Positions 8,029 through 21,388 of a DNA stretch of 64,000 nt are shown here, one piece after another. How positions within the stretch are numbered: position 1 is the first letter of the stretch; each line of letters opens with the position of its first letter. The stretch is taken from positions 930,001-994,000 of the forward strand of contig NZ_CP035632.1 of assembly GCF_008807075.1 (NCBI RefSeq), written 5' to 3'. Below the pieces are notes generated by a model. That model saw only the letters and a program-made list of their open reading frames with translations. It was not told the origin of the DNA and did no database searches. Source of the DNA: Synechococcus sp. RSCCF101 (GTDB lineage Bacteria; Cyanobacteriota; Cyanobacteriia; PCC-6307; Cyanobiaceae). The translations under genes were made by a program, and so were the position numbers.

Positions 8029-8573
8029 GTGGTGTTCAAGACGAGGGTGCGGGATGAATCCGTCGCCGGCCCGAATCCCTTCCGTTGGCAGGATGTGAAC
8101 AGCGCCGACATCTTTGCCGGAAAGAAGACCGTTCTCTTTTCCCTCCACGGCGCCTTCACGCCGACATGCTCATCCAACCATCTGCCCCGCTACGAAGAGC
8201 TCTACGAGCAGTTCCGTTCGCTGGGCGTCGATCAGATCATCTGCGTGTCGGTGAATGATGCTTTTGTGATGTTCCAGTGGGGAAGCAAGTGGGCGCCAAC
8301 CATGTGTTCCTGCTTCCCGATGGCAACGGCGAGTTCACACGCAAGATGGGCATGCTCGTCGACAAGGCCAATCTCGGCTTCGGTCAGAGGTCCTGGCGGT
8401 ATTCGATGCTGGTGAACGACAGGCAGATTGAGAAGGCCTTCATCGAGCCCGGCTTCGCCGACAACTGCCCGGCCGATCCGTTCGAAGTGTCCGATGCTGA
8501 CACCATGCTGGCCTACCTGAAAGGGGTGAGCCCGTCAGGAGTGTCATCGCCACGGCGGGAGTTTGTGGGCTGA
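8029..8573 (+). pseudogene. Peroxiredoxin (Prx5/PrxII type), frameshifted
   Basis: The two halves of one peroxiredoxin lie in different frames. Frame one, from GTG 8029, carries the N-terminus and the peroxidatic site GAFTPTCSSNHLP, then [13 protein letters not shown]. The rest ([44 protein letters not shown]) continues one base off, ending at 8573. The break is in the G-run at 8279-8282, where one missing base would restore the Trp-Gly-Lys sequence. The joined product would be about 180 residues with a short C-terminal extension. Family function is thiol-dependent reduction of peroxides. The rest is uninterrupted, so either the lesion is very recent or the missing base is a sequencing error. 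Confidence 0.85.
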
Positions 8574-19268: not shown

Positions 19269-20087
19269 TCAGCCCTGGATCAGAAGAGGCCACTCCAGCC
19301 AGAGCCGGAGCCACCACTGGGGCCCCAGCACCCACACCAGCCAGCCGCCGAGGGCAAGGAAGGGACCGAAGGGAAAGGCCTGGCGGGGGGCCAGCAGCCC
19401 GCTCAACCGGCCGGTGAGGCCGTACACCGCTCCGCTGAACACGGCCAGAGCCAGGGCGATGGCCACGCCCAGCGGTCCCAGCCAGGCCCCGAGCATGGCA
19501 GCCAGCTTGGCGTCACCCAGACCCAGAGCCGGCTGGCCCAGCACCCGCTCGGCCAGGGCGCTGAGCGACTCCAGGGCCAGCAGGGCCAGGGCGGCCGCCA
19601 GCAGATGGGCCAGGAGCAGCGGCCGCAGGGACCCGGCCGGAGCCAGGAGCAGGGTGGCGACGATTCCGGCGATGGTTCCCCAGCGGCAGAGGGGCTCGGG
19701 CAGCCAGAGGTGATCCAGGTCGATCAGCGCCATAGCCAGCAGCCAGCTGAGCAGCAGCCAGCCCGCCAGCAGCTCGCTCCAGCTGCCCGGCCCGGCGGCC
19801 AGGACACTGACCCAGAGACCGGCCGTGAGGACCTCCACGGCGGGGTATCGCGCGGCGATCGGGGCGCTGCAGTGGGCACAGCGTCCCCGGAGACGCAGCC
19901 AGCCCAGCACCGGGAGGTTCTCGATCCAGGTCAGGCCGGCGCCGCAGCGGGGGCAATGGCTGCCGGGATGCAGCAGGGACTCGCCCCGTGGGAGACGCCA
20001 GGCCACCACATTGAGAAAACTGCCCACACAGGCTCCGAGCACAGCGGTGGGGAAGGCCAGAGCGGCCATGGGCAGCGCGGTGATCAC
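19269..20087 (-). CDS. pilD: Prepilin peptidase / N-methyltransferase (type IV pili)
   Basis: PilD cleaves the prepilin leader and methylates the new N-terminus. The membrane protein shows the cytoplasmic [14 protein letters not shown] box, two CxxC pairs (Cys45/48, Cys70/73 in CPRCG and CAHCS), and the two catalytic aspartates in LIDLDH (Asp123) and the GLGDAKL (GxGD) motif, with about eight helices. I chose GTG 20087 because it overlaps the stop of the small upstream gene (GTGA); ATG 20069 six codons later is the alternative. The frame stays open to an ATG at 20324, but that extension is Pro/Arg-rich and covers another gene. Length is 272 residues. Confidence 0.9.
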
Positions 20088-20320
20088 GGCCGCACGATCG
20101 GCCGGACCGGACGCTGCCGGGCCGGACGGGGACGGATCAGGTCCAATGCCAGGAACTGCTCGTCCGGCAGGAGCACCGGAACCGAGAAGACGACGCGTCC
20201 GCAGGACTCGGCCTCGGTCAGGACCACCCCGACCGGGTCGGGACTGCCGGGGTGGGCGGTGAGGAACGCGAAATAGATCGAGCGGGCCCGGGCCAGGAGA
20301 TCGCGGCTGTTGACCCGATC
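20084..20320 (-). CDS. Small conserved-looking protein, start codon missing or shifted
   Basis: Between prk and pilD the minus strand encodes a clean 78-residue sequence beginning DRVNSRDLLARARSIYFAFL, continuing through GVVLTEAESCGRVVFS and VLLPDEQFLALDLI, and ending with an Arg/Pro tail. It terminates in a TGA that overlaps pilD's GTG by the classic GTGA arrangement. No ATG, GTG or TTG occurs in this frame just upstream. However, an ATG ends one base out of frame at 20322 (ATGGGAT); removing one G would give ATG-GAT and start the protein exactly at its Asp. I infer a one-base G-run insertion (mutation or sequencing error), or a non-standard start. Function unknown. Confidence 0.55.
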   Translation of the reverse strand, partial: DRVNSRDLLARARSIYFAFLTAHPGSPDPVGVVLTEAESCGRVVFSVPVLLPDEQFLALDLIRPRPARQRPVRPIVRP

Positions 20321-20485
20321 CCATCGCGGCCCGGAGGAAGCAGCGGACCGCGGGCCGGCGATGTCAAACGATGGGGAGGGTCGTGACGGGCGATCTGCGG
20401 AAATGAGGCCTGCCGCTGATAGCGGGCATCGTAACGGCTGTGAACCTCTCAGCCAGCAGCCGTTTGCGGGCAGGGAAGCAAACCG

Positions 20486-21388
20486 TCAGTGAGCGTGGCG
20501 CTTCTCCTCGATCATGCGGTGGATGATCGGCGTGAGGATCAGTTCCATCGCGAAGCCCATCTTGCCGCCGTTCACCACGATGCTGGTGGGGCTCGACATG
20601 AAGGAGTCGTGGATCATGCTGAGCAGGTAGGGGAAATCGATGCCCCACTTCTCGCGTGCACCCTTGCGGAAGTGGATGATCACGAAGCTCTCATCCGGCG
20701 TCGGGATGTTGCGGCAGATGAATGGGTTGGAGGTGTCCACCGTCGGCACCCGCTGGAAGTTGATGTCGGTGCGGCTGAACTGCGGGCAGATGTGGTTGAT
20801 GTAATCCGGCATCCGGCGCAGGATCGTGTCCACGATCGCCTCGGCCGAGTAGCCCCGCTCGGCGTTGTCGCGATGGATCTTCTGAATCCACTCCAGGTTG
20901 GTGATCGGCACCACCCCGACCAGAAGATCGGCCAGCGCCGCCACGTCGTAGTCCTCGCCCTTCACCCCGCCATGGAGTCCCTCGTAGAAGAGGAGATGGG
21001 TGTCCTTCGGGATGTCCTCCCAGGGTGTGAACTGGCCGGGGCCGAGGTCGGTGCCCAGGCGCGCATTGTGTTCCGCCGCCTCCTCCGGGCTGTGCAGGTA
21101 GTAGCGCTTCTGGCCGCCACCGCTCTCGCCGTAGGTGCGGAAGAGCTCCTCGAGCTTGTCGAAGAGGTTGGCCTCGGGCCCGAAGTGGGAGAAGTTCTCA
21201 CCCCGGCTGAGGGCATCCGCCATGGCCTGCTTCATGGCCATCCGCTCGAAGCGGTGGTAGCTGTCGCCCTCCACGACGGCCGGGACGATGCCTTCCCTGG
21301 CGAAGATGTGCTCGAAGGCCCGCTTCACGGTGCTGGTACCGGCCCCTGAGGAGCCCGTGACGGCCACGACCGGGTGACGCTTCGACAT
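20486..21388 (-). CDS. prk: Phosphoribulokinase, class I (proteobacterial type)
   Basis: PRK phosphorylates ribulose-5-phosphate to ribulose-1,5-bisphosphate. The 300-residue protein starts MSKRHPVVAVTGSSGAGTST, with the P-loop at residues 12-20, and has YEGLHGG (catalytic acid region), NLEWIQKIHRD and NFQRVPTVDTSNPF. This pattern and length match class I enzymes of proteobacteria, not the redox-regulated class II PRK of beta-cyanobacteria and plants. Only two cysteines occur (201 and 225); the regulatory P-loop cysteine pair is absent, so thioredoxin control through that pair is not possible. The gene lies downstream of leuB with a 79-bp spacer that contains a hairpin. Confidence 0.97.
   Translation of the reverse strand: MSKRHPVVAVTGSSGAGTSTVKRAFEHIFAREGIVPAVVEGDSYHRFERMAMKQAMADALSRGENFSHFGPEANLFDKLEELFRTYGESGGGQKRYYLHSPEEAAEHNARLGTDLGPGQFTPWEDIPKDTHLLFYEGLHGGVKGEDYDVAALADLLVGVVPITNLEWIQKIHRDNAERGYSAEAIVDTILRRMPDYINHICPQFSRTDINFQRVPTVDTSNPFICRNIPTPDESFVIIHFRKGAREKWGIDFPYLLSMIHDSFMSSPTSIVVNGGKMGFAMELILTPIIHRMIEEKRHAH

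Follow-up and report, generated by a model that had tools for sequence, protein, structure and literature searches.

A conserved small gene between prk and pilD in picocyanobacteria with a predicted AUU or AUC start codon

Introduction

How is a reading frame translated when no ATG, GTG or TTG stands at its head? This question is raised by a locus of Synechococcus sp. RSCCF101, a member of the picocyanobacterial family (Prochlorococcus/Synechococcus/Cyanobium type) with a genome of one contig of 2.98 Mb, a 64,000-nucleotide stretch of which was analysed here (the window). On the minus strand, prk (20486..21388) encodes phosphoribulokinase (Pfam PRK, 1.2e-67; NF011997, 494 bits); the 494 bits were obtained with a PRK15453-type phosphoribulokinase model, whereas the PRK07429 model gave only 64 bits (cut-off 236). 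It is followed on the same strand by pilD (19269..20087), a prepilin peptidase gene (A24_N_bact, 1.3e-32; Peptidase_A24, 5.1e-15). Between the prk stop codon and a TGA at 20086-20084 a further frame is open, and this TGA shares the four bases GTGA with the GTG (20087-20085) that opens the pilD frame. To our knowledge, bacterial genes that start with a codon other than AUG, GUG or UUG have seldom been characterised, and gene finders cannot detect such starts.

Results

The frame between prk and pilD is a conserved gene

The frame was searched for in related genomes, first by its 78-residue core, to which 190 of the 300 family genomes searched contain a homologue. A profile search returned homologues, in the same frame, in 225 of 400 family genomes, and across the whole class in 256 of 291 (231 of 261 when only good genomes were counted), as a rule in single copy. 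A narrower alignment (A2) served as the working query for the contig scan, and a search of the genome contigs with the single protein sequence of the window gave no matches. Since the homologues share the frame upstream of pilD, this frame is coding. The original prediction, made from the letters of the window alone, of a hidden but real gene ending in a GTGA overlap with pilD is therefore strongly supported, and its overlap is confirmed.

The gene order is equally stable. Among 80 named relatives, prk lies upstream of the small gene in all 80 and the order prk, small gene, pilD is kept in 79; in 28 of the 80 loci an ATG or GTG of a long downstream frame overlaps the stop codon of the small gene. 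Outside the family, pilD still adjoins it in several members. As delimited below, the gene of the window covers 106 codons plus TGA (20084..20404, minus strand; M-SADRPSRPSPSFDIAG...RPIVRP; best homologue E-value 2e-38). Taking the comparative data together, we consider it very probable that this is a real, intact and functional pan-cyanobacterial gene which, in the picocyanobacterial family, starts at AUU or AUC.

A conserved ATT or ATC heads the frame

Homologues extend upstream as far as a nearly invariant P-S-F-x-I motif (P-S-F codons at 20366..20374; identical in 55 sequences), so the place of initiation was sought ahead of it. No in-frame ATG, GTG or TTG was present upstream of P-S-F in 43 of 114 family loci, the window included, and these loci represent 25 of 36 genera; in the control set outside the family, this was the case for none of 28 homologues. 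The absence of an ordinary start noted in the original prediction thus stood, as the first canonical codon of the window frame is the GTG at 20227-20225, midway through the conserved domain. The proposed start codon is a conserved ATT at 20404-20402 (minus strand), followed by TCC (Ser).

In the relatives, an ATT or ATC is situated 4 to 30 codons before P-S-F, with 13 different spacings. When 159 distinct loci were searched without regard to frame for a Shine-Dalgarno (SD) sequence followed by ATT or ATC, the triplet fell in frame with the gene in 96 of 103 cases; of the 94 sites that also have a TANNNT box at -37..-29, 91 are in frame (35 of 38 once the loci had been dereplicated). The remaining ATT and ATC triplets of the same region were spread 206/280/190 across the three frames. 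In 85 of 91 loci the codon after the ATT or ATC is one for Ser or Thr, and a second residue of this kind makes a good substrate for removal of the initiator methionine. In some compact genomes, such as L079, a near-perfect SD is joined to the triplet (AGAGGAGATACC-ATT) and no other start exists.

The signals upstream of the triplet are conserved as well. In the window, TACGAT (20428..20433, minus strand), a predicted -10 promoter box, lies 29 nt upstream of the ATT, and 29 of 32 dereplicated loci have TANNNT within -36..-29, where shuffled sequences lead one to expect 3.5 (maximum 10 in 2000). Before the ATT or ATC, relatives often carry GGTGA, GGTGG or GGAGG, sequences complementary to the 16S rRNA 3′ end, with duplex energies mostly of about -6 to -13. 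The window has only a weak SD-like core, AGG (20409..20411, minus strand), 4 nt before the ATT with an energy of -5.7, and for this reason makes a weaker case by itself than its relatives do.

In the 5′ leaders of L014-L032 and L051-L082, TCATCTGAGYRATCAGGTGGG lies between the -10 box and the start codon and is highly conserved in two genera. This conservation appears to exceed what an SD alone would need, and regulation through the leader is possible.

Canonical starts do not account for the pattern

An alternative that deserves weighing is that each lineage uses a canonical start of its own: the GTG of the SD in loci that have it in frame, a GTG or ATG 15 codons upstream, a TTG at -3, or the GTG of P-S-F-V, the conserved Ile-Ser being merely part of the protein. 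Some in-frame ATG, GTG or TTG does occur upstream of P-S-F in 71 of the 114 loci, and homologues outside the picocyanobacteria, with a different N-terminus, have GTG (mostly) or ATG starts available and mostly begin at GTG. We nevertheless regard this explanation as improbable, given the 25 genera with loci that have no such codon. The GTG or ATG at -15 codons falls inside the -10 box, and in L059, L060 and L067 stop codons intervene between it and the gene. The GTG within AGGTGG was considered as a general start and ruled out by its variable phase: only 40 of 64 such codons share the frame of the gene, and their distance from the ATT varies (mostly 4-7 nt) and is not locked to the frame. Over half of the relatives do have, besides the ATT or ATC, a TTG, ATG or GTG in frame, the GTG often lying inside the SD, and a mixed use of starts is possible in them.

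In order to locate the onset of coding constraint, differences were counted by codon position in 31 independent, non-overlapping sister pairs. Upstream of the ATT they were distributed 34/24/21 over positions 1/2/3, between the ATT and P-S-F 20/18/40, and downstream of P-S-F 46/33/119; in the P-S-F codons all 18 differences were at third positions (0/0/18). The start codon itself showed one change in 93 sites, at the third base. From these counts, the coding signature switches on at the ATT or ATC codon and is seen only after it, which argues against the canonical starts further upstream. We conclude, on this comparative evidence, that AUU or AUC (20404-20402 in the window), a rare start against which initiation factor IF3 discriminates, is the probable start codon of the small gene.

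The same counts bear on internal initiation at the GTG at 20227-20225, with a product of 47 amino acids, or at the GTG of P-S-F-V in relatives. Some members have no canonical codon ahead of these; we judge such a start very unlikely, as in the window it would delete the invariant P-S-F, the R-W-D motif described below and a conserved helix, and the P-S-F codons change at third positions only.

No base is missing near 20320

According to the original prediction, the gene had begun with ATG-GAT near 20320, and one G lost or gained by sequencing error or decay had removed this start. ATGGGAT is indeed found at 20324-20318 on the minus strand, but it reads in frame as CGA-TGG-GAT (Arg-Trp-Asp), where TGG is the Trp of a conserved R-W-D. 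This motif occurs in 59 of the 96 homologues scored (R-L/F/C-D in the remaining 37) and is mostly written CGN TGG GAT (CGN-TGG-GAY); in dozens of independent genomes TGG-GAT is in frame with no base removed. There is hence no change in the run of G at 20318-20324, the extra G belonging to the conserved Trp codon. Homologues in related genomes are present in the predicted frame, but do not begin with MD-V-S as anticipated; they run on upstream through P-S-F, and the window frame continues for 28 codons upstream of this site, up to the ATT at 20404-20402. A start near 20320 would accordingly truncate the protein, with conserved coding sequence left ahead of it, and we attach almost no credence to it. 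The apparent lack of a start is better ascribed to a conserved non-canonical start codon than to damage.

That ribosomes enter the frame from prk, or from a reading frame upstream, by frameshifting or read-through is just as hard to credit: the window frame is that of prk and directly follows its stop codon, but the frame relative to prk varies among relatives, and the promoter-anchored ATT or ATC with its SD would be left unexplained.

A common cause, homopolymer error or decay, had also been suggested for 20318 and position 8279, and this link does not hold. In the window, at 8029-8573 on the plus strand, a peroxiredoxin-like frame is divided between two overlapping ORFs with an apparent shift near CAGTGGGGAAGC (8277-8279). 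This split does have the look of a genuine frameshift or of an error in the sequence; the site at 20318 does not.

Exceptions and start-codon turnover

A limited number of genomes depart from the AUU or AUC start. In an RCC307-like clade (L087, L088, L090, L077, L182, L263) the start is GTG, and a TANNNT box (TAAGGT-like) ends about 6 nt before it. A reading of AAGGTG as an SD before this GTG (g25/g33/g45) was dropped, since TAAGGT makes a more convincing -10 box, at 6 nt from the GTG, and the transcript of the small gene is for this reason perhaps leaderless in this clade. The ATT is lost in a few other genomes, being AAT in L016 and ACA in L054, and also in L063, L076 and L086, and such genomes have a TTG, ATG or GTG start or an unclear one; a few g5 and g35 genomes have lost it and present an in-frame TTG, GTG or ATG. 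In six g19 genomes no clear start site was seen. We argue that these exceptions reflect replacement of the start codon in marginal cases and that the main pattern stands.

Discussion

A plausible course of expression can be drawn from the arrangement of these signals. Transcription would most likely begin about 22 nt upstream of the start codon, from the -10 box just after prk, as the position of TANNNT suggests. In most relatives, an SD of the GGTGA or GGAGG type a few nt upstream would set AUU or AUC in the ribosomal P site, the initiator tRNA would read it as Met, and initiation would presumably take place with fMet. As IF3 discriminates against AUU and AUC, low output is expected, with a dependence on IF3 or on the condition of the ribosome, by analogy with infC and sigR. 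Where the stop codon overlaps the pilD start, the overlap might conceivably limit pilD translation.

Both precedents are instructive. infC, the gene of IF3, starts with AUU in E. coli and ATC in Streptomyces and is autoregulated by IF3 (cited in PMC5472188); like the small gene, it has a conserved AUU or AUC start with an SD, kept across a clade. Unlike infC, the small gene does not code for any known translation factor. Of 19 picocyanobacterial genomes examined, nearly all have an infC that starts with ATG, so that the classical AUU gene is ordinary in this group. sigR of Streptomyces has a GTC start repressed by IF3, a non-canonical start conserved in 32 of 34 species and preceded by a strong SD (AGGAGGTG); it was missed by gene finders and precedes its partner gene (PMC5472188). 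The small gene resembles sigR in its conserved non-canonical start, in having been overlooked by gene finders and in its place before a partner gene, and differs in that the codon is AUU or AUC rather than GUC, that it spans dozens of genera and not one, and that an effect of IF3 is proposed here by analogy. A search of a limited literature set found precedents of the infC and sigR type and no report of this gene or of cyanobacterial AUU starts.

With loci that have no canonical start, a conserved in-frame placement of ATT or ATC and the onset of coding constraint at this codon, the small gene is, as judged from sequence comparison, a member of the small known class of conserved non-canonical starts, and unusual within it in its breadth. 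More tentatively, and with the odds in our view somewhat against it, this family, which dominates the picocyanobacteria of oceans and lakes, may have retained AUU or AUC on the small gene for most of its history because selection keeps the codon from becoming AUG, in which case the weak, IF3-gated start would itself be the regulation and would couple production to how the translation machinery is faring. Being conserved across dozens of genera, the gene offers a natural evolutionary series of start codons (GTG for the RCC307-like clade and for homologues outside the family, ATT or ATC elsewhere, and a few TTG or ATG) that lends itself to testing what a weak start costs and what it is used for. 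A further lesson is the warning that conserved frames without a start should not be written off as sequencing errors or pseudogenes.

With regard to the protein, a core is conserved throughout the cyanobacteria (AR.IY...EP.GVVL...GRVVF..PVLLP.E.F.PL..I). No family in Pfam, NCBIfam or PHROGs matched above its curated cut-off, and comparison with the PDB gave no sequence match and no Foldseek fold match at E<=0.001. AlphaFold2, supplied with the window protein and 54 relatives, predicted one helix (33-50) together with a small sheet (59-86), the core being confident (pLDDT 77, pTM 0.58). A role as a PilD-dependent accessory protein was considered on the basis of strict co-occurrence with pilD and set aside, as the presence of the gene does not follow pilD strictly: genera g12, g21, g22, g27 and g32 have the small gene without an A24_N match, and the reverse is seen in g9, g18, g40 and g56. 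The small gene is absent from many streamlined Prochlorococcus-like genera (g18, g40, g11, g56 and others), some of which retain a PilD-type peptidase.
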